Shown here in pieces: positions 9,874 to 64,000 of a stretch of DNA of 64,000 nucleotides. A program made the translations under genes and the position numbers. Every line of letters begins with the position of its first letter. Position 1 is the first letter of the stretch. The notes under the pieces are model-generated. The model saw only the letters and a program-made list of their open reading frames with translations, was not told the origin of the DNA and did not search any database. This DNA is from Bremia lactucae (taxonomy: Eukaryota > Oomycota > Peronosporomycetes > Peronosporales > Peronosporaceae): positions 904,360 to 968,359 of the forward strand of contig NW_027152030.1 in the NCBI RefSeq assembly GCF_004359215.1, in the 5' to 3' direction.

Positions 9874-9894
9874 CGTAACGTAACTCAATAGGCT

Positions 9895-27263: not shown

Positions 27264-28181
27264 NNNNNNNNNNNNNNNNNNNNNNNNNNNNNNNNNNNNN
27301 NNNNNNNNNNNNNNNNNNNNNNNNNNNNNNNNNNNNNNNNNNNNNNNNNNNNNNNNNNNNNNNNNNNNNNNNNNNNNNNNNNNNNNNNNNNNNNNNNNNN
27401 NNNNNNNNNNNNNNNNNNNNNNNNNNNNNNNNNNNNNNNNNNNNNNNNNNNNNNNNNNNNNNNNNNNNNNNNNNNNNNNNNNNNNNNNNNNNNNNNNNNN
27501 NNNNNNNNNNNNNNNNNNNNNNNNNNNNNNNNNNNNNNNNNNNNNNNNNNNNNNNNNNNNNNNNNNNNNNNNNNNNNNNNNNNNNNNNNNNNNNNNNNNN
27601 NNNNNNNNNNNNNNNNNNNNNNNNNNNNNNNNNNNNNNNNNNNNNNNNNNNNNNNNNNNNNNNNNNNNNNNNNNNNNNNNNNNNNNNNNNNNNNNNNNNN
27701 NNNNNNNNNNNNNNNNNNNNNNNNNNNNNNNNNNNNNNNNNNNNNNNNNNNNNNNNNNNNNNNNNNNNNNNNNNNNNNNNNNNNNNNNNNNNNNNNNNNN
27801 NNNNNNNNNNNNNNNNNNNNNNNNNNNNNNNNNNNNNNNNNNNNNNNNNNNNNNNNNNNNNNNNNNNNNNNNNNNNNNNNNNNNNNNNNNNNNNNNNNNN
27901 NNNNNNNNNNNNNNNNNNNNNNNNNNNNNNNNNNNNNNNNNNNNNNNNNNNNNNNNNNNNNNNNNNNNNNNNNNNNNNNNNNNNNNNNNNNNNNNNNNNN
28001 NNNNNNNNNNNNNNNNNNNNNNNNNNNNNNNNNNNNNNNNNNNNNNNNNNNNNNNNNNNNNNNNNNNNNNNNNNNNNNNNNNNNNNNNNNNNNNNNNNNN
28101 NNNNNNNNNNNNNNNNNNNNNNNNNNNNNNNNNNNNNNNNNNNNNNNNNNNNNNNNNNNNNNNNNNNNNNNNNNNNNNNNN
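27264..28181. other. Assembly gap, 918 N
   Basis: Run of N only. Protein frames predicted across it are artefacts. The same interval in copy B1 (3312-3467) is about 154 bp, so the true missing sequence may be much shorter, or this copy holds an insertion. Confidence 0.98.
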
Positions 28182-30040
28182 CTTACTGACTTCCAACAGT
28201 TGGTTGGAATCGGTAGCGGCTTCAGTGGCGCACTGCTGGACGGTGCAGGCTTAATGCGCTGACACTGTTCGCAAGAGCGAATATAGTTGGCCACCCATCT
28301 ATATAGGTGTGGCCACCAAAATTCCTCTGACACTCGTAAGAATGTCTTTTCACGGCCCAGATGCCCACTAGATGGTGCATCATGGAGCTCGTGAAGGATC
28401 ATCAACTTGAGATCTGTGTCATGAGGCACATAGATTCTCAAGGGATCACAAGGTGACAGCTGATGCCATAACAGGCCATCGCTGTAGCTAAAGCGATTGA
28501 GCTTAGCTTTCAGGTGCGACGGAAGGGAAACCTTTCGTCCACCGAAGTGATCCAACAGCAGGCGACAGTGGTCGTCCTGACTGTAGCTCTCTTTTATCTC
28601 AGAGGCCAATGAGCTCGTCACGTGGTATGCCTTCATGGCTGCCAACGTCGACGGCTGAAATTGTGCTTTCGCACTAGACACACTTTCCTGGTGTCTAACC
28701 TCGAAGTCTGGTCTGCGCGATAAAGCGTCAGCCAAGACATTCGACTTACCCGGCTTATATTCAACTTTGAAATTAAATTCAGAGAAGAATGTGAGCCATC
28801 TTGCCATTCTAGGCGAGAGGTGCGGTGAGTTTATTGCGGTCCGCAGTGATGCGTGATCCGTATAAACCACAAATGGTTCGGTGCCCAATAGGTGCACACG
28901 AAACTTGACAAGAGCATACTTTATTGAAAGTAGCTCTTTGTCATGCACAGGGTAATTCAGTTCCGCGGCTTTTAATAGCCGGGACTGATAAGAGATGACG
29001 CGGTCAACGCCGTCGTCATCCTTCTGCATGAGCGCGCTGCCGATTGCAAAATTACTTGCATCGCAGACGACGCTAAAGGGCTTATCCGCGTCTGGCAATG
29101 CCAAGACCGGTGCCTCTACAAGAGATTGCTTCACTGATGTGAACGCATCTTCTTGTTCTTTTAACCAAACCCATTCTGTGTCCTTTTTAAGGAGATCAGA
29201 TAATGGTTTAGTTTGCTCCGCATAATTCTTGCTATACTTATGCAAGTAATTAGCGAGCCCTAGGAATTGGCGCAAATCCTTCACATGCCGTGGGATTGGC
29301 CATTCCTTTACTGATTTTACCTTGTCTGGGTCTGCTCGTACACCATGTGTACCAACGATGCAGCCCAGTACAGGTATCTCAGGGACCCCTATGACGCACT
29401 TTTGCAAGTTGACGTACAATTGGGCGTCCTTTAAAGTCTGCAACACAGCGTCTAAATGACGCTTGTGCGACTCTATTGCGCTCAGCCCGTCCTCGGCCCT
29501 ACTATGCACGAATACATCGTCAAAGTAATGAGGCGCGTAGGCACGGTGCTGACGCATCACGTGAGCCACCACTCGGTTGAATGTCGCTGGTGCGTTTTTC
29601 AAACCTTGGGGCATCACAAGCCACTCCCAAAGCATACCGCTTGGAGTGCTTACTGCCGTTTTGGCTACATCGGACTCTCTCATGAGTACCTGACAGTAGC
29701 CATCCTTCAAATCCAACGCGGAAAAGATAGTTGACTTTTCCATGGAGCTCAACCAAACATCTTTCCGCGGAGTTGGCGTTTGAGCCGGTATGGTCGCCGT
29801 GTTCAGCTTATGGTAAGCTTGTACCACGCGCCATCCACCTGTGGCTTTACGCACACCCGCACATGTCCCGCCTTAGCTCGCTTGTCGAAGATCTCATCGA
29901 TATAATCGACTTGTTCTTTCGGCAGAAGCCATTGCCGGGCCACACCATATTGGTGCCAAATTCCAAATTAATTTCATGCCCAATGACCGTATCGGCTGGT
30001 AGGCGGCTCGGCACTTCTTTTGGAAACACAACACGATATT
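28182..30040 (-). pseudogene. Gypsy-B reverse transcriptase, RNase H and integrase N-terminus, main copy
   Basis: One long open frame (29854-28182). RT: WRVVQAYHKLNTATIP, STIFSALDLKDGYCQVLM, GLKNAPATFNRVVAHVM, and the catalytic loop HYFDDVFVHS. Connection: FLGLANYLHKYSKNYAE. RNase H: VVCDASNFAIGSALMQ, HDKELLSIKYAL, VVYTDHASLRTAI, LADALSRRPD. Spacer, then the integrase H2C2 finger HELHDAPSSGHLGREKTF...CEQCQRIKP, ending NCWKSV at the gap. Between 30040 and 29854 the RT N-terminus (VPSRLPADTVIGHEINL) is present but frameshifted. This is the best-preserved pol in the window; catalytic residues of RT and RNase H look intact. Confidence 0.9.
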
Positions 30041-30851: not shown

Positions 30852-32246
30852 CTAGCACTGCGAACTTCTCTTTACAAGAGAAGTCACCAAACTAAAGACG
30901 AGTTCTACCTGAACTCTTTCAGACTTAACGAGCGCGCCGTTCGCCAAACAAATGGTCGCCTCTTCTCGCTTGCCATCCTGGCAAAGCGACTTAAGCATCG
31001 CCGATCTCTTTTTTAGAGCCGCGAATTTTACAAATTTTTGTGATGCACCCGAATCCAATAGGAAGGTCATCACCTGGTTATAGCCTCCTAATTGAGCGCT
31101 ATAGACCAGCAGGGTTGAGGTCCGAAATTTTGAGACTTCAGCAACTAAGCTACCCATTTGTTCGATAACTCTAGAGTCAGCGTCGGTAGGGCATCCAGCC
31201 GCTGCTGCGTCTCGCACGCTGGTTCTTGCCATCACCCTTTGGAAAAAGGAGTCCTCTTGCTGGGCATCTTCGCCCCAGCAGGGACTCGGGCAGCAGCGAG
31301 CCATCAGATGGCCGCGCTTGCCGCATTTATAACAGACAACGTCTGCATTGCCCAACTCCATAGGAGTGGCATCTGACCTCTCGGCCGACGGCTTATACAA
31401 AGCTGTCGCCGAGGCACTATTGTAGAATTGCTCCACAACTAAGGCAATTCGGATTGCCTCTTCCATCGTCAACGGCACCTTTCTCAAAAGGGCCTGTTGC
31501 GATGGGCCATGTCTTAGTCCGTTCGGACCTACGGTAATGAACGCCAACAGCGAGCGCATCTCTTGCACATAATCTTGCAGAGATCGCTTCGCCTGTCGCG
31601 CTCCAAGAAGGCGCCTGAAGCAACACTTCGATGTTCGGCGGCTGGTACATGGCGCGAATCTTTTCTCAAAGATAGCCCATGTAGGGAACGCCTTACCGTC
31701 CACCGTAAGCGCCGAGAAAGCCCACTCTGAGGCCTTACCGCGCAGATGCGACATGGCGTACGACACAATCCGGCGGTCGTCCTCGATGAGCTGGGCGACA
31801 CCGCATTGCTCCACGGCTAAAAGTCAGTGGACAATCGTGTGCGCCACAGTTCCATCGAACTTGGGCGGGTCCATCCGAATGGGCCTCGGCTGATGCGGCC
31901 GGGCAGAAAGCATCTCAACAGTCCTGTTGAGAGCCTCGCTCCGAACCTGCTCATGCCTCAGCTCATCCTGAGTTTGAGTGACGGACTCCGCCGCAGCATG
32001 GCCTTGTGCCTCGGACGCGGCCCTCCGCTTTCCGAGCACGAATGCCTCAAACTGCTTCAACTGAGCAACATGTTGTTCAGGAGGACTACCCAGGAGCCTG
32101 GCCAGGGCTTGTTCACCAAGTCCCTGTGCCATAAGCCCTGCCACCTCCCGATGATGTTCAGTGTGCTGGGGAACATGAGCCCAATCAATATTGAGGCTCA
32201 TCCTCGCGTACACACGCAGAGACGCGGGTCGTGGGAAGGATTTCAA
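30852..32246 (-). pseudogene. Gypsy-B gag-protease, main copy (one internal stop)
   Basis: A single frame of 464 codons broken by one TGA at 31826-31824, where sibling copies have TGG (HTIVQW). N-terminal part: LARLLGSPPEQHVAQLKQFE and a coiled segment; capsid: RPIRMDPPKFDGTVAHTIV, LRGKASEWAFSAL, TWAIFEKRF, QAKRSLQDYVQEMRSLL. CCHC knuckle CYKCGKRGHLMARC; aspartic protease FLLDSGASQKFVKFAAL (Asp-Ser-Gly-Ala). Only the nonsense codon prevents a full Gag-PR product. It begins just after the LTR and primer-binding site. Confidence 0.88.
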
Positions 32247-32257
32247 GTGCTACCAAG

Positions 32258-33185: not shown

Positions 33186-34607
33186 TTATGGTCGAGTGCA
33201 CAACTGACGTAGCAAAGCGTGAAAATCCTCTCTCTCCTGTTGTCGCTCCTTGTGCATTTGGGTAAAAACATTCAAGAGCTGTTCTTGTTGCTTTTCTACA
33301 AGGGTTTCCATGTAATTTAAGTTTTGATTCGAAATTTCCTGCGGATTCCGCTGATGCAATATCGCAAGTAGCATCGCTTGGTTCTGCTTCCGCTCTGCCA
33401 TTCGCTCTTCCCGCAGTTCATGCATGAGCTGCTCGAATCGAGCATTTTGTGCCTCGAGCAATACTTCTACAACCTGTTCATCAATGTGAGATTCCTCCAC
33501 GTCGTCGACCGCAAACGATGAATTTTTGCTATGATCTTCTTCAACCTCTGACTCGTCATCGTCATTGGACGGAGACGGACTGGGAGATCTAGCCACTGAC
33601 TCGTCCGACGAGGATTCGGACGACACGGACGACTTGCGCAATATCCTATGCCCCCGTTTCCGTTTACGACCAGTAGCCGTCACAGTTCCTAAAATTTCTT
33701 CTTTCTCGAGAATGCTGCTAATCTTGTGGAACGTTTCGCGGTCAATCTCGCAGCCCACGCGTTGGCTTGACTTCGGACTCACGAGCTTTCGTTGTAAGCG
33801 AAAGCGTTCCCCCGTGGTATAATCAAACCAGTCTGATCCATCCAGCGCTTCTAACGCAGTCACACATTGACAAATGAAATTGTACGAATGAATGATGCAC
33901 CGCTTCTTGGCCGTAATGGAGCCGACCGTTGTATCCTCTGGTCCCCCAAGGGCCACAAACTTTTGTCGAATCAACCAATTCGGCAACTTTACCTTCTCAT
34001 CCGGCTCGTTGCCATAGTCAATAAATTCGTCGACGGCATCTTGCCAGGCACCCACGAACAAAGCCCAATCTTCGGCAGTCCACGCGACTTTGACCGTCTC
34101 AACAGAATCCGTCTCCTCTTCGGGCTCGATCGTTTTCTTTTGACGTGGAGGACTCCTTTTTGAGGATGCCTTCTTTCGAAAGTCTTTTCCTTTGCGATTT
34201 TTTCCGCCTCCGCGACATATGCGATCAAGTCGACGAAAGAGCTCTTGGCTCACAATGGTCACCCCCTTTTCCTTCTTGCTGTGCACTCGACGAAGCTCGT
34301 GCTGCTCGGCCGCCGACAATTCATACCAACCGGGCGTGCCTCGTTTCAGACTCTTTTTGTTTGTGGCGACAATGAGACGATACGACGTACAAAGTCGATG
34401 GTGCTGCCGAGTGACGGACGAAAGGCTTCGTTTATTCGAGCCAGAGATGACGCAAAAGCGCGCGTGCAACGTGGCACGTTCGCCTGTGGACAGCAAGAGG
34501 CGATCCTTTGGGTCGTCCACGACCTCTTCCCACGCGTCCACGAGGTAATTCAATTCGTCAGAGGCCCAGGCCGAATTGACGCGAGCGCTAGCGGCTGTGA
34601 GTGGCAT
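33186..34607 (-). CDS. Two-module trihelix/SANT-like protein with C-terminal coiled coil
   Basis: Intronless, 473 residues from the ATG at 34607. Two copies of a ~110-residue helical module: residues ~12-130 (AWASDELNYLVDAWEE, then RFCVISG, SVTRQHHRL, WYEL.AAEQ) and ~174-300 (AWTAEDWALFVGAWQDA, RQKFVALGG, SITAKKRCI, WFDYTTGERFRL). Regular Trp and helix spacing recalls Myb/SANT or trihelix DNA-binding modules; this is pattern recognition, not a database hit. A basic patch GRKRKRGHR (313-320) could be a nuclear signal. An acidic Ser-rich stretch (330-375) is followed by a strongly charged coiled coil (380-470) ending LVEKQQEQLLNVFTQMHKER. The neighbouring gene upstream (34863-36689) is a paralogue with the same layout and strand, so this is a tandem duplication. 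A chromatin or transcription role is inferred only. Confidence 0.85.
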   Translation of the reverse strand: MPLTAASARVNSAWASDELNYLVDAWEEVVDDPKDRLLLSTGERATLHARFCVISGSNKRSLSSVTRQHHRLCTSYRLIVATNKKSLKRGTPGWYELSAAEQHELRRVHSKKEKGVTIVSQELFRRLDRICRGGGKNRKGKDFRKKASSKRSPPRQKKTIEPEEETDSVETVKVAWTAEDWALFVGAWQDAVDEFIDYGNEPDEKVKLPNWLIRQKFVALGGPEDTTVGSITAKKRCIIHSYNFICQCVTALEALDGSDWFDYTTGERFRLQRKLVSPKSSQRVGCEIDRETFHKISSILEKEEILGTVTATGRKRKRGHRILRKSSVSSESSSDESVARSPSPSPSNDDDESEVEEDHSKNSSFAVDDVEESHIDEQVVEVLLEAQNARFEQLMHELREERMAERKQNQAMLLAILHQRNPQEISNQNLNYMETLVEKQQEQLLNVFTQMHKERQQEREDFHALLRQLCTRP

Positions 34608-34862
34608 GATGCGGCGAGAAGGAACGGCTATTTAAGAACTGGTTGGGGATCCGATTTTTGTTGAAAACGAGAGGGCACATACAAAGAACAAGTACGCACA
34701 ACTCGATAAGTTTGAATTTGGCCATTTTTCGGAAATGGAAGTGGGGTACTCGATGCCGAGGGACATATTTAATGCAAGGACTCATCAATGCAGCATTGAA
34801 TTGAAAGTACCAGCAGACGACTACTACAAAAAGCTACTTAATCAAATTATGGACTCTTACCC

Positions 34863-36689
34863 TCAGTCTTTTTGTTCGTGGTCAAAATTGACAAGACGAC
34901 TACTTCCCAGCTCGCGTAGAAGCATTCGAGCTTGTTCACGCTCTTGCGAATGCTCGTCTTGCAGCTGATTAAACAAACTAAGCAAGTGCTGGCGCTGCTT
35001 CTCCACCAATGCTTCCACGAATTGAGACGGCTGATCAGATCTCTGCGTAGATGAATTGCGCAGCTTGAGCGCTTCCAAAATAATTTCCACATTGTGTTGG
35101 CGCTCTTGTCGTCGCTCCTCTTGAAATTCGCCAAGCAGCACCTCGAATCGCTTTGTCTGGGTGTCTAATAACCGTGATACCCACTTGGCATCGTTTAAAT
35201 TGGTGCGTCGACGCTTTGGAGGAAAATTCATTACCTTGTCGTCGTCGGGAGGTTCGACATTGCGGTTGGCTTTCTTATTCAAGTTTTTATAACGAGAGTG
35301 GCGAAGTGCCTCTGCATTGGCGCGTCGGCTGGAGCTTTTAGTTCGAAATGAAGCGTCATCATCATCCACCTCCTTTTCGTCCGATTCTTCGGAAATGGTT
35401 TCTGCAATTACTAAGCCTCGAGGCGGGCCTGAATCGAATTTTTCTTTCGATACTTTTCTGTTGACCTTTTTAGTAACTTCGCCTTTAGTTCGTCCAAGTA
35501 ATTCATTCAGTGTCGCCGGAGCACGAGGCGCATTGCCCGCTGGTGTCAGAACAATTTGCTGCGCTTTATCAATTTGCACTAGTTGCTGATACGTATCTTT
35601 TTCAATAAACACAGCCTGTTCATTGTGGTGACCATATTTTTTCTGTAATTCCATTCGTTCTTCAGGTGTCATGCCAAACCAATTCGGACGATCACTTTGC
35701 GACGCCAGAGTGCGCAGCACATTGCGCAAGGCTCGAAACGCCATCACAATGGCATGTTTCTTGGCACCTGTTGACTGATTCGTACGTGGAGTATTCTTGT
35801 CCCCACAAAGTTCGACATACCGTTGATGAATTAATGAATTTAATCGAAGTCCTTCGTTTCGGGATGCAAAAGACCCGTCGAATCCCCCATTTGACAATAC
35901 AGTGACCACCTCGTGCCACGCCATTAAAAGTCGTTGTTCCTCTCGTTTTGACCACTTGGACGTCATTTTTACCTTAAACTTGCTCTTGCTCTTGGGAGGC
36001 GTATAATCTGTGTCGGCAATTCGCTTACGACGCAATTTATTTTTAATAAAATCATCATCCGACTCACTATCGGACAAGCTGTCGGACTCTAACGGTTCAT
36101 CACGTTTTGAGTCATTTTCTAAAGAGTTCGTCTTTAAGCTTTCAGCAGGTGACAAAGGGGGTGACAATGGTGGTGGGGGCGTCTGGCACGACCGAAACAT
36201 TGGCAATCCAGCAAGTGCCTCGGCCGCGGCCTTCATCTCATCAGCCATAGAACGCTCTTGTGACTTTGGGTGCAGCTGAAAAGATTCCATTGGAGAAGAC
36301 GGCGGCGGGGGAGCCTCCTCGCAGATCCGACACAAGAGTTCAAACTCGTCCGGCGTGACGGTCACGAGCTCGCCCAGTCGCCCATTCATGCAGCGCAGAT
36401 CGTCCTGTTGATTCGTCGGTAGCTGAAACCACGTCGGACGTCGAGCGCGCAAGCTTTCGGCATTGAAAGCGCGAAGAAAGACAAAGGTGCGCACGAGACG
36501 CTGACGTTGGGCTTCCACTTCCTGGACCGAGATGGACGCACCGTCTCGCGGTCGTAGCGCATCAAAACGCGCGCAGAGTTGATGCAACTCCATCTCCGTG
36601 ATTTCATCACGGTCACGAGGCATGTCTAGTGTTTGTTCCCACGCTTGCAGCAGCGCTAGCAGCTCGTCGCGTCGCCACCAATGTGCCAT
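34863..36689 (-). CDS. Paralogous two-module trihelix/SANT-like protein with coiled coil
   Basis: Intronless, 608 residues from the ATG at 36689. Module 1 at residues ~2-128 (WWRRDELLALLQAWEQ, RFDALRP, RRPTWFQLPTNQQDDL) and module 2 at ~245-375 (KWSKREEQRLLMAWHEV, HQRYVELCG, AKKHAIVMAFRAL, PNWFGMTPEERMEL). They are separated by a Pro-rich run (125-185) and an acidic Ser-Asp patch (200-213). A basic signal PPKRRRTN lies near 495. The C-terminal coiled coil (~505-600, FVEALVEKQRQHLLSLFNQL) aligns directly with that of the gene downstream. It diverges from a promoter region of ~150 bp shared with the methyltransferase gene at 36838. Function unknown; probable nuclear DNA-binding or scaffold protein by architecture. 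Confidence 0.85.
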   Translation of the reverse strand: MAHWWRRDELLALLQAWEQTLDMPRDRDEITEMELHQLCARFDALRPRDGASISVQEVEAQRQRLVRTFVFLRAFNAESLRARRPTWFQLPTNQQDDLRCMNGRLGELVTVTPDEFELLCRICEEAPPPPSSPMESFQLHPKSQERSMADEMKAAAEALAGLPMFRSCQTPPPPLSPPLSPAESLKTNSLENDSKRDEPLESDSLSDSESDDDFIKNKLRRKRIADTDYTPPKSKSKFKVKMTSKWSKREEQRLLMAWHEVVTVLSNGGFDGSFASRNEGLRLNSLIHQRYVELCGDKNTPRTNQSTGAKKHAIVMAFRALRNVLRTLASQSDRPNWFGMTPEERMELQKKYGHHNEQAVFIEKDTYQQLVQIDKAQQIVLTPAGNAPRAPATLNELLGRTKGEVTKKVNRKVSKEKFDSGPPRGLVIAETISEESDEKEVDDDDASFRTKSSSRRANAEALRHSRYKNLNKKANRNVEPPDDDKVMNFPPKRRRTNLNDAKWVSRLLDTQTKRFEVLLGEFQEERRQERQHNVEIILEALKLRNSSTQRSDQPSQFVEALVEKQRQHLLSLFNQLQDEHSQEREQARMLLRELGSSRLVNFDHEQKD

Positions 36690-36837
36690 TCCAAACTTTC
36701 AATTCTTCGGTTGAAAAATCCTTGATTGCATACGTAAGTAAAACCCCTCGCGAAAGTGATTCTTCTTGAGGTTTGTAAGTGAGGGATACACCGCGTACTA
36801 TACGGAATGGTAGAAATTTGCATTAAACGATTCAACT
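36690..36837. promoter_or_regulatory. Shared intergenic promoter region of two divergent genes
   Basis: 148 bp separate the divergent start codons at 36689 (minus) and 36838 (plus), so both promoters must lie here or overlap the neighbouring 5' ends. I cannot assign an initiator or other element with confidence. Confidence 0.4.
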
Positions 36838-37742
36838 ATGGCAGACACCGTGCAAGTTTTCCCTGAAAAGAATGTTGATAGGGTCGAAGAGACTATTTGC
36901 GTGCGTGTGAATGGACAAGATCTGCATTTGACGCTATTAATGGTACGAATAGCAATTCCTTAAATTTCGTCGACTCTGTTCAAATTAAATAGCTTTTCAT
37001 GTCTGCCGTTTGAACCGTGATTGACAGCAAGAAGACGAGCTCGCGCCGTTATTTTCGGGCGCTGCTTGGGCCGGGACATTATTGTGGGATGCAGCCGTGC
37101 ACTTAACAAAACGATTTTTAGTTGATTATCACCACGTACTCATTGACCCAAATAATGACTTGCGTATCTTGGAACTCGGTGCTGGAATGTATGGTTTTCA
37201 ATCGCCACATTTGTATCATTAAAAGTTGCAATTGACGATTTCAATTCAGTGGTGTACCAGGCATGGCAGCACGAGTCGCTGGTGCCAAACATGTCGTGCT
37301 CACAGAACAGGACGAGCTATTGCGGCTACTGCACGTTAATTTAAGTACAAACAGAAAGGTGTTGAACCTTTGTGGTGGCGAAAAGAGCAAGAGCATAGAC
37401 GGAATTGTGGCAAGACCGCTAAGCTGGGGGATCAAGCAAACAAACAAGTACTTAGCGCAATATGCCGATGAAAAGGTGGACGTTGTGCTATCCTGTGACT
37501 GTATCTACGAGCCACTATACGGCGACTCTTGGCGCGCGCTGGCCCAGACGATGGAGCTTCTATGCTTAAAGAATCCAACGTGTGTCGCGCTCGTTGGTGT
37601 CGAGCGACGCAATGAGGACGGCATCGATAAGTTTCTAGCATTCATCGCCACGCACACAAAACTTCAGTACCGACTGGACGAGGAAGTCATCCACAGTACA
37701 AATAATCGATTAGAAGTGTATTATCTCAGTCTTGAAAGATAA
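36838..37742 (+). CDS. Putative protein-lysine methyltransferase, METTL21/Methyltransf_16 type
   Basis: Three exons predicted: 36838-36942, 37028-37188 and 37250-37742, with introns 36943-37027 (85 bp, GTACGA...CAG) and 37189-37249 (61 bp, GTATGG...CAG). The phases join without a shift to give 252 residues. Exon 2 supplies PLFSGAAWAGTLLWDAAVHL and the beginning of SAM-binding motif I (RILELGAG), which exon 3 completes (GVPGMAARVAGAKHV). This supports the second intron strongly. Later come the acidic loop VVLTEQDE and the DxxY-type motif VVLSCDCIYEPLYGDSW. Such enzymes methylate lysines of elongation factors or chaperones; the substrate here is unknown. Convergent with the PFK-2 gene, stop codons 55 bp apart. 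Confidence 0.85.
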
Positions 37743-37797
37743 TGGACGGCTAACGTCGAGGTCAGCTAGAGACACTCGCGAAAAAAATCTTTTTTTT

Positions 37798-39981
37798 TTA
37801 CATAGGGCGGTGCCACACTTCCTCACACTTGTAAGCTTTCGGCGTGACTTGAATAACCGCGTGCAGCGGAATGTTCAGCGTCGGACACTCTTCCGGGGAC
37901 TTATTGGTCAAGTAGGCGTACAATACACGCAAAATTGCCTGGTGGGCTACAATCAAGACGGGCTGATTCATTCGCATGAGTTCGGTAATTACAGGCTCCA
38001 GGCGGTGGATAACATCTTGATACGACTCGCCTCGCGGGTATCGATAGTGAAGCTTGTTGTTCTTGCGTGCCAGATATTCCTCGGGCATTTCCTCGGCCAC
38101 TTGCTTGTACGTCATGCCATCACAAATCCCGGCATCAATCTCATCAAGCTGCTTCCACTTCACAATCGATCGCCCACGGGCTGCGATCCGTTCGACTGTC
38201 ATTCCTGTCCGCAGCATTGTCGATGTCCATACCGCGAGTTCCGTATCATGGGACGGATAGTACGCGTCGATAAACCGGTCAAGCTGAACCGCATATTGCA
38301 CGCCCAGTGGACTCAGCGGTGCATCGCCTCCAATGCGCTTCTGTTTATTGTACATGCTCTCTCCATGGCGACTCAGCCAGATCGGTCGTGGCTTTAGATT
38401 CAAATTCGCCATGAGAAACATGATGCGGGACTGCAAGTAGCCATACACTTGGTTGCAAAAGATTTGACGACCGACATCAATGATCTTGATGAATGGAGCG
38501 CTCTCAAATTCAGCTTCAAGAGGTTCATAGAGAAATTGGTAGTGCTGGATGCGATTATTATAGTCAGCTGCTGCCTCCTCCATCGTCTGCCCCGCGTAGT
38601 CGGCCGAATTGAGTTTCATTTCATTGATCGAAGACGCAATGAGTTCAGGATCGTCGCACACCGACTCAATAAACATCATTTCGCACTTGTATCGCTGACG
38701 CACTTCGCTTAAAAGCATGTCGCGGCGCTCGCGTGTGACATTCGTGGCGTCAAAGATGACGCAGTCGCAGTCGTTACTCTCGAGTGCAGCAATTGAGTCC
38801 TCGAGACACTTTCTCGACAAATCATTTCGAATCTGAACCGATTCTTCATTCATCGGATCCCAGAAAGCGTGATTGACGTTCGAACCTACGAGTTTCCGAC
38901 GATATTCCCCAGTATTAAACGTTCGTGAGTGGTGTCCCATCCACGTCAAATGACGGGCTAAGATATGACCAATGTATGTCTTTCCGCGTCCAGGCAGCCC
39001 CACGAGAAAGATCATGAGCTTGCCACCGCTACCGTGCTGCATGACCGTACGAGGGCCTCGCACCAGCAAGGACCGGTGGCCACCAAGCTGAGCACGACTG
39101 TTGTGCTCGTGCGTGACTAAATCGCCCCCAAAGTGCTGCGTCGTGGCTGCTAGCAGCACGGAATTAGTGATTGCATCGTCCATGTAATTCGTGTACTTAG
39201 GCGTCGCCACTTCGGCAGCAACGACGTTCGTACTCGACGCAGCAACGCTCAGCAATTCCTCACTCTTGGACCGCGTTAATGTTCCTGCTCTCGGTCTATT
39301 GCCATGAGAGCTAGCAGGTCGCTCCTTGACTTCAATGCCATACTCGGCATCTTCCGTCTCCTGCGGTTGACGATGCGACGGTCGTAATATTGAGGAAGGC
39401 GTGGAACCCACAAATGTATTGGAACGAGACTTGACGCCCGGAGAATGCTGCGGTCTAAGACCTGGAGACGCGTGATGGCGTAGCTTCATGAGTTCTTCAC
39501 TGGCCACAGGATTCATTACTGGAAGTCCTTCGTTGGCATCACGGAGAATGGTATGTAGCGTGTGTTGCAAAGGCTTGGTCTTGGTCTGCGGGTCCACGTA
39601 CGGGACAATTTTAATGAAATTGTTAAGATTTCCATACTCGTCAGGCGCAAAGGCAACCTCAGGGTCGTACTGCCACGCTCCGTCCACACAAAACTTGAAC
39701 AAGTGCGTACCCGGAGCCAGCCACAATTTGACACTAAAGGGCGGGGCATGGTCGTCCGCTATCTGTTGCTGAAGCGGAATCTGGGAACCCCAACTACTCC
39801 ATTTGACACAATTATTATGTTAACAGACGGAAATTGATCGTCGGAGGCGACAAATAATTCGAAAGAGTGCTGCTCACTTATTAAAGGTGCCCGTGACACC
39901 CACGGACTCACAAGGGTGGGACCACTTGATCACAGCTGGAAACAAATGATCTTCTTCCTCAAGAACGTTCACTGGCGACAT
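37798..39981 (-). CDS. Bifunctional 6-phosphofructo-2-kinase/fructose-2,6-bisphosphatase with glycogen-binding N-terminus
   Basis: Two exons: 39981-39878 and 39796-37798, with an 81-bp intron (39797-39877, GTGAGC...GAG). They join in frame to 700 residues. The start at 39981 (MSPVNVLEEED) is the only in-frame ATG before an upstream stop, but a further 5' exon is possible. Residues ~10-95 form an AMPK-beta/CBM48-like glycogen-binding domain (FPAVIKW, WLAPGTHLFKFCVDGAWQYD, GNLNNFI), split by the intron. A low-complexity Ser-rich linker follows (~110-240). The PFK-2 domain begins near 295 with Walker A GLPGRGKTYIGH (~301-312) and FDATNVTRERR (~383-393). The phosphatase domain has the RHGE motif (~511-514), DEIDAGICDGMTY (~586-598) and VAHQAILR (~651-658). 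It makes and removes fructose-2,6-bisphosphate, a glycolytic control signal; the carbohydrate domain may tie it to storage glucan. Confidence 0.92.
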
Positions 39982-40865: not shown

Positions 40866-40904
40866 GAATTACCTCTTTTTAGCTAAAGACCCGTAGCTGC
40901 TTAA

Positions 40905-41162: not shown

Positions 41163-42120
41163 ATGAGTTCGGTCGTAGGCGGGCCAGCCGTTGGCGCTAT
41201 GCTGTTCACTCTGAGCAGAGATGAATAGCATGCGGCCATAGCCGAGTTCATTCAACACGTACTCGACGGGGCTCATGAGAAAGTAGCCTTGCTTCACCAG
41301 CAAAGCTCTCAACACACGGAGGTTTTGAGAGAACAGGGTGCTTAACAGATGGAACTGTTGAGACAGCAGCATTTACATGCTGCTAATGGGCAGACGCTTC
41401 CGCGTCGACTCGAAAGCTAAAGGATCCAAAATATTTAAACACAAGGCAGTTGAGGGCGACTCCTTTTTGAGATGGTTCGTCGAATTCGACGATGCCATAG
41501 AAGCTCGTCGTGTCAGTGATGATGCGACGAAAGTGAAATTTGGCTCGTCCAACTTAGCTGGACGTGCCAATTCTTGGGCATTGTGGCTCGGGCTTCACGA
41601 CCTATTAGTCTTTGAGTCGTATGAGGTCTTTAAAACCCGGCTCAGACAAACATTTGAGCCACCACGTGCCGAATTCAAGGCTCGAGCTGAGCTCCTGAAT
41701 TTGAAGCAGGGCAAGCGTGACATCCACGCTTGTGCCCAACATATACGATACCTGGTCAGTTGTATCGTATTTCATCCAATTGATAAAGAACAAACACAGG
41801 TAACTGTGTTTATGAAAGGTCTTGCAGACGGACCTGTTAAGACCCACCTGTTCTGGCTAGAATTAGAGTGGCTAGACCAAGCGATCTATATGGCGGAACA
41901 AGACCGAAACAGGCTTTCGTCCACTCGGATGCTTATCTTCGCCAATTCGACACGAAAACGGAGGACCAGAACCCACGGATTTCTCGTATGTAGAGAGCGA
42001 CAAACCTCGCTCTTCAAGTTACAAACGATTACAGAAATGTAATCGTTGTCGAAAAATGGGCCACATCGCCTATGAGTGTAGTTCCCCACGGTCAGTGCCA
42101 AAAAACACTATGCGAAAAGA
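41163..42120 (+). pseudogene. Gypsy-A gag, copy A2
   Basis: Plus strand: SSVVGGPAVGAMLFTLSRDE, a coiled segment (HEKVALLHQQSSQHTEVL; LRQQHLHAAN), then the Gag capsid core (FLRWFVEFDDAIEARRV, KFGSSNLAGRANSWALWLG, FKTRLRQTFEPPRAEFKARA, LNLKQGKRDIHACAQHIRYL, VTVFMKGLADGPVKTHLF) and a CCHC knuckle CNRCRKMGHIAYEC (42041-42082). 41377-42042 is open for 221 codons; stops or shifts lie at ~41228, 41346 and 42000. Structural coat protein in an active element. The coding DNA carries many perfect hairpins. Confidence 0.85.
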
Positions 42121-42723: not shown

Positions 42724-45184
42724 GGCGTTCACAAGGTTGTGAATGCTACGGGTGAGTGCGATGGCCTCACTTGTGGTTCGGTCGTTAGCATGACTGCACA
42801 AGACCTCAGTGCCCAACATATTGTGGAGTTAGATCCCGAAGGCTATGCACAAACACATGAAGCGTCGAGGTTTGACCACTTGAATAAGTTGAGTGGTACA
42901 AAACAAGGATGCTTGCTTAAAAAGCAACATCCAAGAAAGTTTAAAACGCCAGTCTATTAAAGACAGCTCTAGATCGACTTCGTAGAGGATCTCGCTGTGG
43001 TAGCGCAACCGCAGCTAGAAGCAGTTGAAGAGGATACTCCCCAAATATTTTTTGCGGGAATAAGTCCGCGGAAACCTGTGGTCAAAAGTTTCCAGGTACC
43101 TTTGAAATAAGTTCCAAAAGAGAAACTGAGACAAAAAATGTCTCAGTAAACAAATGGATCAAGTGTAGGTGCTTATACATTTGATCTTATAGCGTCCCCG
43201 AAGTTAACTTCGGAGACAACTCAATTGCCAACGCTAGAACCGAAACGGTTCTTGCGTGATTGGCGTAGTGGCAAATTTAAGAAGATCTGCGTACGTGTCA
43301 CAGATGACAACTACATGGCTGATATTCGGTCGGCAAGAATATTATCTGAGAACAAACGGGTTCGAAGCTGCTCATCGATGGACGAAAGTGTCCTCGATGA
43401 GAAAACTCGGATGAAACGTTTTACGTCCCAATCCTGAGAGTCTCTGAAGACAAACCCTTTATGAAAGGATTTAATAATTTTAAAGGTGTCCTTTCTGAAT
43501 TCGTACCGAGCGAGTTTGCTTAAGGTTAAAGGCACTCGACACGTGATCGACCTAATTTCAGGTTCGAAATACTTTGTGATGGAGCAATGGCCATTGCCTC
43601 CGGAACAAGTAACAGCGATCGACAAATTCTTTGCCGAACGCTTAGCAGTGATCTATGTGAGAAAGTCAATTTCCCCACATAGCTCTCCGACCTTCTGTGT
43701 ACGCAGAAACAGGAGTATGGTGGATAGTGCATGGATGCAATAAACTGAACGCTGCAACCGTACCGGCTCAAACGCCGATACCACGAAAAGACGTAATCAT
43801 TGATGGTATGTCTAAGAGTACTATCGTTTCGTCAAAGGATCTGACGGATGGTTTTTATCAGATCCTTATACGTAAACAAGTTATTATGTTCACAGCAGTA
43901 AGCACCCCAAGCGGTACGCTATAAGAGTGGCTAGTCATGCGTTCGTATCGTCAATTGCCAATATTGGGAGCCAAGCACCCAAAAAAGCGATCGATTATTG
44001 AACAACGGATTAAGTGTAGGCGCTCATTTGCTTGATCTGATGGCGCCGCTGAAATTAACTTTGCAGTCAACACAATTGTCAACGCTAGAACCGCGACAGG
44101 GGCTTAGTTATGCCCCTGCGACATTTAACAAATATGTAACCAATCTTATAAGATCAGTGCGGGATTTTCCACCGAGCTATTTTGATGACGTCTTGTTCGT
44201 AGCAGAGCCATGAATCAAAAGTCGGATGTTGAAGTACATCGTACCACGTCCGAAAGGTTCTTACACATATACTTAAGCACAAGCTGTATGCAAATCTCAA
44301 GAAGTGTATATTCGCTGCAAGCGAAATACCACTTCTTGGGTGCATCGTAGGTAAACACGGTTTACGCCCGTATCCAGAAAAGATCAAGGCGATCGCCAAT
44401 TGGCCTGTGCCAGTCTATGTAAAGGGGCTAGGAAAGATCCTCGGTTTAGCGGCGTACCTGCACAAGCACACACGCGATTATTCCAATATGACAGCACATC
44501 TTTCTTCTTTGTTGAAGAAAAATGTTAAGTGGTCATGGAACGCTGATTGTCAGCGTTTCTTCGAGGGGTATTTTTTGTACAAGCTCGATGCAATCACCAA
44601 TCCTGGCGATTGCTGACCAAGACCGACTTTTTCATGTGGTCTGTGACGCCAGCGATTTTGCAATCGGCTGTGCGTTAATGCAATATGACACAGACGGCGC
44701 AGAGCACGTCGTCTGTTATCAATTGCGTCAGCTCCAAACAGCTGGGCGCCCCTTGCATGAAATTCGCTTTGGCTAGTTTAGGGTCTATCTCTTGGGAGAT
44801 AGACCTTTCATTGATAATACGGACCATGCGTCCTTACGCTCGGCCGTAAGCAAACCATACCACAACCACCTCGCAAAGAATGGCGAGATGGTTGTCTTTC
44901 TTCGCGGAATATACTATCTCCGTGGAGTATAAACCAGGACGACTAAAGCCACTGTTGCAACAATAAGTGTTCCGTCGTCAGCATAACTCGACGATGTTAT
45001 AAGAGTTTATCAAGAAGATTAGGTCTTAAAGTGTGGATGGATTACCTTAGAAATCCATCCAAACAATCCTTTAAAGGATTGTCGAAATAGTATCGATCCT
45101 CAACAGATCGATATACAACACACCAGTATGAGTTCGTCCGCAAGTAAATACGTGCTTGCGAAGTGTGTCAATGGATGAAGCCCA
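42724..45184 (+). pseudogene. Gypsy-A RT, RNase H and spacer, copy A2
   Basis: Pre-RT linker 42724-43440. RT: ALLKVKGTRHVIDLI, EQWPLPPEQVTAIDKFFAER (43580-43650), WWIVHGCNKLNAATVPAQTP, STIVSSKDLTDGFYQILI, and the catalytic SYFDDVLF near 44178-44202. Connection GLAAYLHKHTRDYSNM (44445-44490). RNase H CDASDFAIGCALMQYDTD (44644-44695), decayed afterwards. Spacer to 45184. A piece of the pre-RT linker (cf. 43150-43250) is repeated inside RT at about 43985-44095, displacing part of the palm. Multiple stops. Confidence 0.8.
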
Positions 45185-46379
45185 GTGCTTTATCCCGTTC
45201 TCCATTACAACCTCTGCCTGTTCCGGCAGAGTGTTAGCAGTCTGTATCCATGGACTTCGTCTTCTGATTTCCCGACGACGAACATAAGAACAATAGTATT
45301 CTTGTTATTTGTTGATCGTTTCAGAAAAATGGTACATCTTGCTGTAGTAACGGTGTCGATCACAGTCAAACCCTGTCCTCGTGTCTTTGTTGACACAATC
45401 CGCGGACTGGTCTCAGATCGAGATACTAGATTCACGGCGAAATTCTGGCAAACTGTATTAAAATCACTTGGAACACAGTTGAAAATGTCAACTTCTGATC
45501 ATCCCAAATCAGACGGTCAGACGGAGCGGGCAAACCATATTCCCGATAATATACTTCGCGGATACGTAAGAATTAGTAATAATTGGAGCGATTCTTTCCG
45601 ATGGTAGACTTTGCCACTAACAATTTAGTGCTTGCTTCTACGATGCATACTCCATTTTCGTGAATGGCTTACGCCACCCCAATATACCCACCTTGTTTGG
45701 AAGTGACTATTATTCTAGGACGGAGGGACTCGCTCGAGCAGAGAACCTTCTAGCTCTTGCTCATCACGCATTAGTCCTAAGATCAATGCGATGGATACCA
45801 ATGTTGAGTTAACTAACATTGAAGTGGACAAACTCAGTAATAATAGAAATGCTATTACTGACTTTGACAACATGCTGAAAGACTGCATCGAAACAATATT
45901 ATTTATGAGAACGACAATACTCTCAATAATGAAGAGATTGATTTCGACGCAGTGCGAGCCGGTCGCACGGAAAACAAAATAAGACCGAGTCAGCAGGTGA
46001 TTAATTACCTGTTGGTTAGAGAAGCATAGGTCCGTCTCGTACTGGATTCTATCGCTGATGCGGTGGACCGACAGAAACGAACTCTGGCAAAAATTGAAGA
46101 GCAAACATGCTATCATTTAGTGTTAATGACCTTGTCATACTATCTACGGTAAACCTACCAAAGCACGTAGTGACGAATGTAGGCGGTAATAAATTAGTGC
46201 CCAGGTATATCGGCCCGTTTCGTGTATTACATCGCCAAGGCAATGCATACACGATCGAGCTGCCTTGTAGTATGCGTACGCATCCTACCTTTTATGTTGG
46301 GCGTCTCCACCCATCAGTACGAGGCTTCTTCCGATTGCGGATAACACCAGAACGGTCAAGGGCATCAGCCAAAGCCTGA
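45185..46379 (+). pseudogene. Gypsy-A integrase and tail, copy A2
   Basis: H2C2 region is decayed (CEVCQ-like near 45150). Core: LLFVDRFRKMVHLAVVTVS (45298-45355) and DRDTRFTAKFWQTVLKSLGT, then TSDHPKSDGQTERANHI (45490-45540). Hinge 45610-46100 contains VREA and LDSIADAVDRQKRTL. Tail 46107-46320: NDLVILSTVNLPKHVV, RYIGPFRVLHRQGNAYTI (GPF/Y motif), HPTFYVGRLHP. Just after, it runs into the end of an antisense gene (aORF-1). Confidence 0.83.
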
Positions 46380-47680
46380 TGGTTCCGAGCCAAAGACTTA
46401 TTGCCTCGGAACAGGGATTGATTCTCATGAACCAGACGATCCACTCTTTCCTCCAAGAAAGAGATCTTCTGACGAGCTGTCAACAGCTCGCATAAGGGAC
46501 TGATGTGTCCTTTTGTTCGCCAATTGTCAGTCGCAATCTGCGCACAACTTTTCAACTGGTCACGAGAAACATTATCGACCGTCACCGCTAACGCGCGGCG
46601 ACGGGATTGCTCGTGATTAAGATTCTCCCTTACGTATAAAGAGTGTGATTCAAATCACGATGCTGAAGCGGGCTCGTCAAACGAGGTGATTTCGATCTCC
46701 CCCCCTCCACATCCATTGATGGATTCAGGTGGTGGAGAAGCGCTTTCTTTTTTAAAGTTTCTTGAACCATCGTGAGGCAAAGTTGGTTCGAACGAGTTAT
46801 CTCGCTCGTTGGCGAGGGTATCCACCCTCGCATAATAGTTGAAACCTCGTTCCCACTGATGTTGGACGTTCCGGGTCTCGTCTTGCAATACGACGAGACC
46901 CATCCTCCTCGGCAGTAGGTCCATCGGAGAACGAGCGTTCCCCGCGCTCGTGGAAGGATTGGAGGTTCTCATTCCCTTGACCCATCTCGTACGAGATGAT
47001 TTATCTTCAATGGGGATCTTTGAGGGAATATGCTTACTAAGGGGCATGACCTGCACCCTTAAAACAGCATGGGCATGAGTCCCCCCACGACAGGCAAGGA
47101 ATACCTGCCTCTCTAGACAAACGGTGCAACTTATCTGTTCACCGACTAAGGTCCGTATCTCGAAATGTTTTCGGAAAGAATTTAGCTTGTCAAGCCAGAC
47201 CTCACAGCTTATGTTTTGTACATTCTGTACAAAGAATTTCCCAGCTTGAAACAAAGGTTTACATGCTTTGCCTATGTGCAAGTGTACCACCGATGCCGGT
47301 AAAAGGCATCGATGAAGAATCCTTTTTCATTCTTACCAGGCTTGTGAAGCCTGGATGAGTCGAATAACGGAATATGATATTGATCGTTGGTAATACCAGA
47401 CCAACGAATGAGGTTTCTCTTTGAGGGTAACAAGGCCTCTTTTCAAGAGCGAACCGCAGCGTATTGCGGACCCTCTCCTGATGGCTCATGTTAACGTTGA
47501 CGTTAACTTGGCCCTGGGAACCATCCCAAGATTCAATCCTTTTCTGGTGATTCGAACTAGCACCACCAGCAGTACTCTTACCTTCGCGACCACGTAGTCC
47601 TGGTGACGCATACTAATGTCACCAGAGGTGTTCATCGCCCTCAAAGTCATCTGATGATGACTTCCCAAGAAACCTTTCTC
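46292..47680 (-). pseudogene. Gypsy-A antisense gene aORF-1, copy A2
   Basis: Opposite strand to gag-pol, between integrase and the 3' LTR. From the right: CHISGDI-type start region near 47640; VNVNVNMSHQERVRNTLRFA (47510-47450); DAFYRHR block (47300); FVQNVQNISCEVWLDKLNSF (47240-47185); TRWVKGM; VDTLANERDNSFEP (46815-46770); and a separate C-terminal block with coiled coil FLEERVDRLVHENQSLFRGN and basic tail NRKKPRTDG, stop at 46292. Aligns to 51868-52990 and 63108-64000. Frameshifts and stops make it a pseudogene. No known domain. Confidence 0.75.
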
Positions 47681-47689
47681 TATACTCTT

Positions 47690-47783
47690 GTGTACGTGAA
47701 GTTTTGAGGCACCCTACCTAAACTGAAATCAGTGTAAGGTAAACCAGGACTGATCAGTACTAGTAGAAAGATGCCCCGTTACA
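47690..47783 (+). mobile_element. Gypsy-A 3' LTR end (copy A2)
   Basis: TCTATACTCTTGTGTACGTG through GAGGCACC to CCCGTTACA at 47783 corresponds to the same LTR portion retained at 40905-40996. The U3 part, polypurine tract and aORF-1 start are deleted at about 47685. Confidence 0.65.
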
Positions 47784-57647: not shown

Positions 57648-57759
57648 CCTGGTAGCACTTCGTAGTCGTTCAATGGCCTACTCACGTTCCATCCAGCATG
57701 GACATGTTGGATGAAGAAGGAGGGAGCTTTCAAGCCACTCAAGTAGGCATCCACGAGAT

Positions 57760-61732: not shown

Positions 61733-62293
61733 TGTAGGCGGGCACGTCGTAATGCGGCCACGCTCTACTTAGACACTCCCCCTAGAATAGCGAGGAAGCG
61801 GTTAAACCTGCTTCTCTTGCGTGCAGTGAGGTAGTTGTGGTGGGCGCGCAAGCGACCTCACCCAACACACTAAGTACTCTGGTTAAGTGTCGTCACGGGA
61901 GCGGTAATCCGTCTCCTCGTGCGCACTTACTAAATAGGAAGTAGTTTTCAGACTGATTTATATTTAATAGAATTAAATACAAATACCTATTTTTACCAAA
62001 TAAAAGATAAAATGTTATCTCTATAGATAACATTTAATATGTATTGCGAGCGTATTTTTCTAGATACCTCGCGTAACGGATGACGCTACCGTCATCACGG
62101 ATAAAGCTTGGCGTCATCCCTCCTAATGTGAATGCACCCGTGTGCATCACATACAAAAGGGTTGGTCACAAATGTGCACCACACCCGAGTGCTGGGTCTA
62201 ATTACTATTATTTAGTAATTGACCATCCCGTTAAGTACACTGTGTGTACTTAACGGGGACTGTGAAACATTAGGGCAACTTTAGCCCGTTACA
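61733..62293 (-). mobile_element. Gypsy-B solo LTR with target-site duplication
   Basis: Minus strand TGTAACGGGCTAAAGTTGCC (62293) to CCGCCTACA (61733), 561 bp, both termini TG...CA. Flanked by CCTTA at 61728-61732 and 62294-62298. No internal element sequence on either side. This is what remains after LTR-LTR recombination. Near-identity to 32258-32800 over long stretches suggests it is young. Confidence 0.88.
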
Positions 62294-62298
62294 CCTTA

Positions 62299-62576
62299 TG
62301 TTACCTCGTTCGTCCCGCGCCCACTCATTCAAGCCATGTGTGTGTCGGAGCTTGCATCAGAATGCCTATCGTAAGCGCTCACGAGTTTGTCGCCGGGACC
62401 GCGGCGCAGAGTCTGAGCGACAGAAGATCATGAACCTCGTCACCAGCAATGACTTCGTCGTGAAGATGAACAAGGCCATTGCCATTCTTGAGCCTCTCTA
62501 CGCGCTAATTGTCATGTACTTAGTCGGACAGTGTCCCAATTTCAGAAGTTCTGCCAAAATTTCATGCCCTCCCGGG
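62299..62576 (+). pseudogene. Possible hAT-type transposase fragment
   Basis: After a frameshift, [20 protein letters not shown] and [20 protein letters not shown] (62403-62522) resemble the ...F+..+..AI.ILEP+..L+R.. helix of hAT/DUF659 transposases. The solo LTR at its left and the Gypsy-A LTR at its right both inserted into it. By-eye similarity only. Confidence 0.4.
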
Positions 62577-63030
62577 TGTAACGGGGCACTACGACTTGTA
62601 CTGTTTCAGTACAAGTCCACTTCACACTGCTTCAGTTGTGAGTGGTGCCTTACGTTCGGTGACGTACACTGTACGTGCAGAGGAAGACTTCTCTTAAGAC
62701 AAGTAGACTTAAGAGGGTAAAATGAAAACTGTATTAAATATAATTAAGTGTCTCTTGTTCTATCTTTTTAAATGCTAACTTAATTATAATTTAATACTAA
62801 ACATGTAAATGAATTCTTATCTCTATCTTATCTTGTAACTCTCTCTGATTACTCCTACAGCTGATTAGTCTGCGGAATAAATAGATATAATGGCCTATAC
62901 CTATTTATGGATAAGAATTCTGAATATTACTATATAGAGTAATATCCTCCAAATACTATCTACCTTTTAGATAATATATTAATTAACAACCTTTAAGTGT
63001 TAATTTCATGTAACGATACACCCCGTTACA
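62577..63030 (-). mobile_element. Gypsy-A-type 3' LTR
   Basis: Minus strand TGTAACGGGGTGTATCGTTAC (63030) to CCCCGTTACA (62577), 454 bp, with matching 10-bp terminal inverted sequence. Preceded on the minus strand by the purine tract TTTAAGGGAGGGGTGA (63046-63031), so its element extends right, beyond the window, on the minus strand. Diverged in the centre from the LTR at 57133. Confidence 0.82.
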
Positions 63031-63107
63031 TCACCCCTCCCTTAAACGACAATCACTCTGAATGTCATTAGGTGGAGTGGTCGCTAAATGACCACTTAAT
63101 TTTTAAA

Positions 63108-64000
63108 ATGTTTTTGATTGGTCAGATCCATCATTTTAAATTCCATCGCATGAAGGAACAATTCATGCGGGGTGAAGATAGCGCTGAACCTTCGGCTGCG
63201 GTTCGTGCAGCCGCGGGTGACGCATTGTTATCTCTTGCGGTAGACGTTCCGTCTACCGTAGTGTCTTCCACTCGCACAACACTTGGTGTTGCGAGTGCAC
63301 GTGGTGATTCACCACGTGAGTACGACCCCTCTTTAGAGGTCGATTATGAGTGCGAGTCGGACGAAATGGCCGACTCGGGGAGGATGGAACAGTCGCCTGA
63401 TACCCGTCAGGCGGCTGATTATGAGCCTTCGAATGAGACGGCTCATTCCGATAGACGTGTGAACAGTCTATTTGGTTCCGACGATGAGGATGATCCCTCA
63501 TCGCCCGTACGATCTTTCGTACGGTCTCCCATACGATCACCTGCACGTGTTTCTGTGCAAGGTGACGACGGTGGCGTAAGCCATCGTAAGAAAAGTCCTC
63601 GTGGTACCCCTACCTCAGCGGGTACCACTCAGGGGAGTGATGACAGTAAAATGTCTAATCTCGCCCCTGAAAAGAAGCCGTGGCTTTTGCCAGAAAGGCT
63701 CATTAATAGCTTGTCTGGAGAAACTACTCCACACAATAAATATCCTTTATTTATTGCGACAAAGCTACATGGCCTTGATCCCAGCGCGAAGAACTTTCGC
63801 GCTGAGGAAGATTTCTATCTCGATGCTTTTCTAAAGCATCGATGGTTTAGTGGCAATAATAAGCGAGATAAAGTCTCGCTTATGCAAGCTTGGAGTGCGT
63901 TCATTCGCAATGTTAAAGACATTGGACGCGAAGCTTGGCTTCAAAAACTTAACGCGAATCGTGTTAAGTTTGAGAAAAGAACTCCAACCGGTGCAAAATA
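63108..64000 (+). CDS. Gypsy-A antisense gene aORF-1, open to the window edge (partial)
   Basis: Open from the first in-frame ATG at 63108 (others at 63150 and 63165) through 64000 without a stop, ~297 codons, incomplete at the 3' end. It starts 62 bp inside the polypurine tract of a minus-strand element and reads against gag-pol. Order: acidic N-terminal half (YDPSLEVDYECESDEMADSG; FGSDDEDDPSS), an Arg/Ser-Pro segment (RSFVRSPIRSPARVS), then the conserved block LAPEKKPWLLPERLINSLSG, NKYPLFIATKLHGLDP, EEDFYLDAFLKHRWF, SLMQAWSAFIRNVKDIGREA and LQKLNANRVKFEKR. The same block survives, decayed, at 47.2 and 52.6 kb, so this is a real conserved gene. No signal peptide or membrane segment; no family recognised. 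Its DNA is full of perfect hairpins. Confidence 0.8.
   Translation, partial: MFLIGQIHHFKFHRMKEQFMRGEDSAEPSAAVRAAAGDALLSLAVDVPSTVVSSTRTTLGVASARGDSPREYDPSLEVDYECESDEMADSGRMEQSPDTRQAADYEPSNETAHSDRRVNSLFGSDDEDDPSSPVRSFVRSPIRSPARVSVQGDDGGVSHRKKSPRGTPTSAGTTQGSDDSKMSNLAPEKKPWLLPERLINSLSGETTPHNKYPLFIATKLHGLDPSAKNFRAEEDFYLDAFLKHRWFSGNNKRDKVSLMQAWSAFIRNVKDIGREAWLQKLNANRVKFEKRTPTGAK
63238..63883. repeat. Hairpin-dense stretch in aORF-1
   Basis: Perfect inverted repeats: 63238-63258 (arm CGGTAGACG), 63269-63297 (CACTCGC), 63298-63318 (CACGTGGTGA), 63353-63377 (CGAGTCGG), 63482-63503 (CGATGAGG), 63505-63524 (CCGTACGA), 63601-63628 (GTGGTACCC), 63782-63804 (CAGCGCGAA), 63820-63842 (TCGATGCTTT), 63859-63883 (ATAAGCGAGA). 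Arms 7-10 bp; loops 1-10 nt except the second, whose 15-nt loop holds an inner stem. Confidence 0.9.

Follow-up and report, generated by a model that had tools for sequence, protein, structure and literature searches.

This locus raises the question of why the coding DNA of Gypsy elements should be crowded with perfect short hairpins, as an earlier note had reported from the letters of the same DNA. The window analysed is the whole 64-kb stretch of the Bremia lactucae genome given above. Stems were defined as perfect Watson-Crick arms of at least 8 bp with loops of 0-10 nt, and the null counts came from 100 dinucleotide shuffles per kb. The window contains 99 perfect stems, whereas 9.7 were expected (sd 3.1, maximum 17). 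The dense cluster at 63238-63883, for which nine stems had been claimed, is real and holds 10 (arms of 8-10 bp, loops of 1-10 nt) against 0.06 in shuffles, with a maximum of 1 over 300 shuffles. Likewise, the Gypsy-A cluster at 41365-42615 stands, with nine stems rather than seven. Dinucleotide shuffles gave 0.27 for the 11 stems of 41300-43300 and 0.22 for the 11 stems of 46400-47900. Loop lengths peak at 3-5 nt, and the excess of stems is concentrated mostly at loops shorter than about 16 nt.

Other particulars of the earlier note fared unequally. Its chance figure of 0.2 stems per kb was about right (shuffles gave 0.15 per kb), and the coordinates it gave for stems at 44782-44805, 45063-45082, 30864-30884 and 31913-31932 are exact. 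Its sites in the second aORF-1-like frame were misplaced, the nearest stems being at 46812-46831, 46873-46901 and 47336-47354; with arms of at least 8 bp and loops of 0-10 nt there is no stem at 47289-47312 and none at 16311-16500 (0 perfect stems in 16300-16500). The features of the window are collected in Table 1.

Table 1 Features of the 64-kb window, in order of position
Feature	Position	Strand	Remarks
Copia fragments (control)	8727..11766		1 stem vs 0.6; 10642-11766 codon-shuffle z -1.5 sense, -2.0 antisense
Homologous hairpin in another repeat copy	24294..24313		additional compensated pairs (TGTC..GACA)
Stretch of N inside Gypsy-B pol	27264..28181		outside all counts
Gypsy-B pol, readable part	28184..29854	-	no perfect stem; z -14.0 sense, -10.8 antisense
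Gypsy-B gag	30852..31814	-	one stem; sense z -6.1, antisense z -5.6
Host genes (control)	33186..39726	-	6PF2K/phosphatase at 37798-39726 among them; stems not in excess; sense z 0.2 to -0.7
Gypsy-A gag	41377..42042	+	Retrotrans_gag; stems at 41477-42047
Gypsy-A pol fragments	43661..46307	+	pieces of RT, RNase H, integrase and SH3 matched; stems e.g. 44782-44805, 45063-45082
Other aORF-1-like frame	46655..47290	-	with stems
Repeat-borne 11-bp hairpin	62010..62035		AAATG[A/T]TATCT-loop-AGATA[A/T]CATTT; base-pair switch between copies
Upstream of aORF-1	62560..63071	+	stems at 62593, 62691, 62924, 62981, 63008
aORF-1	63072..63998	+	309-aa open frame continuing past window edge; 12 perfect stems
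Dense-stem stretch of aORF-1	63238..63883	+	10 perfect stems, arms 8-10

Codon-preserving shuffles, which leave both the protein and the codon counts unchanged, gave 0.41 stems for the 12 of aORF-1, 0.15 for four in the other aORF-1-like frame and 0.25 for four in Gypsy-A gag (P <= 0.001 for each). Gypsy-B gag, with one stem against 0.24 (P 0.21), showed no such excess. Of seven frames in the 10-kb stretch L025, five were above their shuffles (P <= 0.017) and two had no stem. Three host coding sequences gave 1, 0 and 0 stems versus 0.23, 0.37 and 0.30. As the earlier note had stated, the host genes at 33-40 kb lack an excess: interval 33000-40000 has 2 stems against 1.15 in dinucleotide shuffles and the host CDS at 33186-39726 has 1 against 0.9. 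One of these host genes, at 37798-39726, encodes a protein that matches a known B. lactucae protein without any difference. The excess survives both kinds of shuffle, checks which that note had proposed together with the host control, and therefore the observation holds; it is genuine in this window and independent of codon usage and of the encoded protein.

A fair test of the excess is given by an unselected genome sample, consisting of twenty 10-kb stretches at round-number positions picked regardless of content (25,745 of the 200,000 bases are N). This sample contained 242 stems versus 26.9 expected, patchily distributed at 0 to 40 per stretch. Patchiness of this kind might raise the suspicion that base composition, codon usage, repeats or the assembly feign the excess, and yet such an artefact is scarcely credible, as neither the dinucleotide nor the codon-preserving null explains the excess and identical stems recur in other genomic copies.

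The excess depends on lineage. L025, the sole element delimited end to end (those of the window lack set limits), has 39 stems in its 10-kb stretch against 1.2 expected. It is a Ty3/Gypsy LTR retrotransposon, with gag (297-1136) followed by RT (2715-3245) and RNase H (3209-3853) ahead of integrase (4224-5096), then SH3_Tf2-1 (5399-5863), and with paired LTRs at 53-213 and 7187-7347 that are 98.1% identical over 161 nt. Two of its stems (144-164 and 7278-7298) fall within the LTRs, hence the description of the hairpins as a property of coding DNA is right in that frames are rich in stems but wrong as a restriction. The 3' part of this E element also contains a 359-aa antisense open frame (L025:5975-7051, minus strand).

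Segments were sorted into classes by protein matches, leaving out window 20600-24400 and stretches without clear protein matches; the class densities are only descriptive because the limits of the segments were set with both stems and matches already in view. Twelve A, E and aORF segments carry 209 stems in 52 kb versus 7.8 expected, and six B- or C-type Gypsy segments carry 7 versus 2.6. There was no excess in the eight loci with the best RT hits, L001-L008 (5 stems versus 5.2), in Copia (1 versus 0.6) or in host CDS (1 versus 0.9). Among L001-L008, L004 and L008 have an endonuclease-like match as in LINEs, slightly below the Pfam cut-off, and the remaining six are called LINE-like solely by the length of the RT match.

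The protein of aORF-1 has no Pfam match. Its family has 14 full-length genomic matches at 99-100% identity, the window's own counted. From the best 40 places for Gypsy-A (window 41377-42600), ten copies of 83-87% identity (L055-L064) were recovered; they are 83-88% identical among themselves, star-like in their relationships and decayed. Gypsy-A looks like an old burst, in the same genome as the near-identical copies of the aORF-1 family. Stems resembling those upstream of aORF-1 occur in L010:1215-1639, a comparison made by eye. Relatives were also sought in viral contigs, where none was confirmed.

Perfect stems form part of a broader and stronger folding. Minimum free energies of 150-nt windows were compared with those of dinucleotide shuffles. 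Mean z values were -2.2 to -3.9 in the A, aORF and B elements and -1.8 in E, and they stood near 0 in host genes and three LINE-like loci. Within the genome sample z was below -2 in 317 of 1141 windows and above +2 in 16. In 900-nt bins, z was -1.5 to -3.5 over window 40500-46800, -2.7 to -6.0 over Gypsy-B (27900-32400) and -0.9 to -2.7 over L025 0-7200. Values were weaker in L011, at -0.6 to -1.4 over 4500-6300, and in the window at 57600-60300, where they ranged from -0.9 to -2.2.

Folding z-scores, another check that the earlier note had proposed, bore out the signal when codon-preserving shuffles were the reference. The aORF-1 values were -14.4 (sense) and -10.3 (antisense), host genes gave 0.2, -0.7 and -0.6 in the sense direction and LINE-like loci gave 1.8 and -0.3. 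Positive controls were the RNA phages MS2 (-9.5, -10.2) and Qbeta (-9.6). The excess of aORF-1 over its codon shuffles is 21 kcal/mol per 150 nt and that of MS2 is 14. Sense values were -4.3 for Gypsy-A gag and -2.8, -3.5, -0.9 and -2.7 for E gag, RT, RNase H and IN, RNase H being the weakest. Gypsy-B pol reached -14.0 in frame, yet without perfect stems. Since this pol folds at phage level without them, the stem measure caught just one style of folding, and the picture of Gypsy elements packed with perfect hairpins, although true of some, is too narrow.

Pairing is short-range, with median pair spans of 18-26 nt versus 31-36 nt in shuffles. In aORF-1, 17 of 58 helices reach at least 8 bp versus 5.1 in codon shuffles; the corresponding figures for MS2 are 22 of 244 versus 15.0 in dinucleotide shuffles. 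The readable part of Gypsy-B pol (28184-29854) has one helix of at least 8 bp where 6.0 were expected. A shortage of such helices was rejected as a trait of B pol, given that the host PFKFB gene has 2 versus 7.5 and two B-like pieces have 5 versus 7.0 and 5 versus 7.8.

Is the pairing maintained between copies? Six pairwise comparisons of aORF-1 (window 63072-63998, copies L044-L048 and L009) gave dN/dS values of 0.18-0.75, which suggests that the protein is under purifying selection, although the copies are not all intact because four of six have one or two in-frame stops. Across the five copies of 93-98% identity, 46 of 60 occurrences of the 12 aORF-1 stems are perfect, as are 4 of the 12 in L009 (83% identity). 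Third codon positions were changed at 6 of 71 sites in arms versus 47 of 238 elsewhere (P 0.03), and in the comparison with L009 at 6 of 70 versus 65 of 230 (P 0.0004). Third codon positions are thus constrained in the arms.

Double changes at paired positions were counted once each, for arms of at least 7 bp in copies at least 75% identical; in the controls each partner was displaced by 1 to 3 positions. Pairing was again Watson-Crick in 44 of 81 unique cases, versus 13-20 of 46-60 in the six shifted registers. In a stricter count that allowed one change per arm, the two changes fell on the same position in 13 of 94 unique comparisons and 17 of 132 controls, which is no excess, but those falling together were Watson-Crick in 8 of 13 versus 3 of 17 at neighbouring control sites. 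Covariation under strict deduplication is thus modest. A first count (51 Watson-Crick among 56 same-position changes) was discarded, as related comparisons had been counted repeatedly, and the unique counts are preferred.

Between lineages, stem positions change over but the folded state remains. This bears on the idea that the stems are a set of discrete RNA signals, for packaging, dimerisation or frameshifting, rather than a general folded state. Some stems are indeed shared at 70-73% identity, such as L010:5486 with L012, L020 and L023. However, in the 65-70% identity class a stem was kept in only 4 of 194 comparisons (43 of the 194 were gapped), and with roughly 4 in each kb of a 52-kb total the stems are too numerous for such signals, which makes this a very improbable account.

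Template switching by reverse transcriptase or another polymerase could perfect imperfect palindromes by mutation alone, and in its reverse-transcriptase form was the second cause offered in the earlier note. Quasipalindrome template-switch mutation (PMC7202029) could yield perfect short inverted repeats, and such events should alter several bases of a single arm. This one-arm rewriting is not seen here: both changes fell in one arm in 128 two-change stem comparisons versus 151 expected, and the three-change figure was 38 versus 39.5, so a template-switch origin was rejected on this test. L025 offers the mechanism some encouragement, having 31 perfect stems and few mismatched near-stems (9 GU, 1 AC and 4 other). 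Against this, third codon positions in aORF-1 arms are constrained, LINE-like loci and Copia fragments lack an excess although they are reverse transcribed as well, and Gypsy-B pol folds without perfect stems.

The repeat-borne hairpin at 62010-62035 argues the same way. The repeat that carries it is probably an LTR, its limits not being set. The genome has 718 places with this hairpin, and among the 50 of them that were listed, all on one contig, the variable pair is A:T in 24, T:A in 5 and a T.T mismatch in 21. The mismatched intermediate between two paired states has itself multiplied, which fits stepwise compensation under weak per-pair selection and not the perfecting of palindromes by template switching. 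We regard the mutational origin as quite improbable. With two paired states and one mismatched, this family forms a natural series for the study of compensatory change. The earlier note's interpretation is thus partly supported: selection for folded RNA or cDNA is the better-supported of its two options in view of the codon-controlled folding energies, the compensatory changes and the third-position constraint in arms.

The evidence favouring RNA over DNA as the folded molecule is moderate and partly contrary. In loops read on the sense strand, A (644) outnumbers T (466), and it does so in 15 of 17 segments; the ten decayed Gypsy-A copies were excluded from the loop tests. GNRA tetraloops on stems with arms of at least 7 bp number 10 of 60 in the sense direction (2.0 expected) and the mirror class TYNC 2 of 60, a difference that amounts to P 0.04 only. 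For the strand evidence as a whole, the orientation of one segment, L010:1-5800, is uncertain. The GNRA and TYNC counts were 12 versus 5 of 98 for arms of at least 6 bp and 8 versus 2 of 43 for arms of at least 8 bp, and the bias was gone at arms of at least 5 bp (14 versus 16 of 182). The RNA phages themselves have no GNRA bias (5 versus 6 of 43) and no A-over-T bias in loops.

A strand-neutral cause at the DNA level would have hairpins favoured in single-stranded cDNA or, as cruciforms, in duplex DNA, with RNA folding as a by-product. Sense and antisense strands do fold about equally (for the gag, RNase H and IN of E the antisense value is the lower), single mismatches in near-stems over 14 segments are no more often G.U than A.C (62 versus 81), and stems lie also in LTRs. 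However, strand symmetry and the G.U to A.C ratio do not decide the matter because RNA phages behave alike, with near-equal antisense folding and a near-stem ratio of 15:15; the latter test was dropped as a discriminator for this reason. The A-rich sense loops, the GNRA loops of long stems and the peak of loop lengths at 3-5 nt count further against a DNA-level cause, which we consider unlikely. The folded molecule is probably RNA, and would be the sense genomic RNA of the element.

We think it probable that several B. lactucae Gypsy (Ty3-like) lineages bear genome-scale ordered RNA structure (GORS) through selection on element RNA. Such selection would favour protein-compatible sequence that forms stable short-range hairpins. 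Many hairpins of lineages A, E and aORF are perfect stems of 8-11 bp with short loops, and Gypsy-B pol attains equal folding strength via shorter helices. Against a selective reading, folding strength is very uneven across old and young lineages.

What the element would gain is a matter of inference, and folding may protect or package its RNA. The most likely benefit would be a compact RNA that siRNA and Argonaute can hardly reach, its stems of 8-11 bp being below the length that Dicer can use. Compaction of RNA for packaging into Gag particles would be the runner-up, weakened because Copia elements likewise package their RNA and the Copia fragments tested show little folding. In the oomycete Phytophthora infestans, two abundant Gypsy elements are covered throughout by small RNAs of either orientation (PMC3522703). 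Structured viral RNAs evade animal RNA sensors, and genome-scale RNA structure in some RNA viruses is linked to persistence and evasion of RNA sensing (PMC3950689).

Genome-scale RNA structure is a recognised yet poorly explained feature of some RNA viruses. The Gypsy pattern resembles it in that the folding energy of coding regions lies far under shuffles, in the z range of MS2 and Qbeta. The four RNA phages compared (Fiersviridae: MS2, Qbeta, PP7 and GA) have sense z values of -2.3 to -3.4 per 150 nt and share the excess of stems, with 20 perfect stems in 14.8 kb versus 1.9 expected, although at 1.35 per kb these are sparser than the roughly 4 per kb of the A, E and aORF segments. The single-stranded DNA phage phiX174 is hardly alike (2 stems versus 0.8; z -0.5/-0.2 against dinucleotide shuffles). 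The pattern works like viral GORS but is not classed there, because the carrier is an LTR retrotransposon with gag, RT, RNase H and integrase, which unlike those viruses persists as host DNA.

Yeast Ty3 is also a Ty3/Gypsy element, and SHAPE mapping shows structured regions within the coding part of its genomic RNA. About 19.4% of that RNA forms a well-folded core, much of it in or near the RT region, and the available text of the paper nowhere uses 'shuffled', 'z-score' or 'GORS' (PMC11381356). Neither 'hairpin' nor 'secondary structure' is used in the available portion of the B. lactucae genome paper (PMC6570648). Among the matches listed from the open-access literature there was no report of ordered RNA structure in LTR retrotransposons or in oomycetes. 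Ordered RNA structure is thus already known in RNA viruses, and relative to that listed literature its presence in LTR retrotransposons would be new.

The B. lactucae genome paper gives 53.3 Mb of Gypsy sequence in a 91-Mb assembly, mainly from recent expansion, and 57,655 annotated Gypsy elements (PMC6570648). It is possible, and we put this forward only tentatively, that a group of LTR retrotransposons evolved a genome-wide RNA fold, its strongest part (aORF-1) exceeding RNA phages, as a general shield from RNA silencing that aided the recent Gypsy burst now making up more than half of the assembly. Ordered RNA structure in these elements would come with built-in controls in the Copia elements, LINE-like elements and host genes of the same cell. 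With these, with tens of thousands of Gypsy elements and with a host group that makes element small RNAs, the purpose of the structure would become testable. A second constraint, acting on the RNA, would also confound any test that infers selection on these elements from their codons.

Two further observations concern individual hairpins. One 10-bp hairpin is present in three copies at a 51-nt spacing in L025:6226-6354. Two much longer palindromes lie at L011:7683 (24-bp arms, 5-nt loop) and L012:954 (18-bp arms, no loop).
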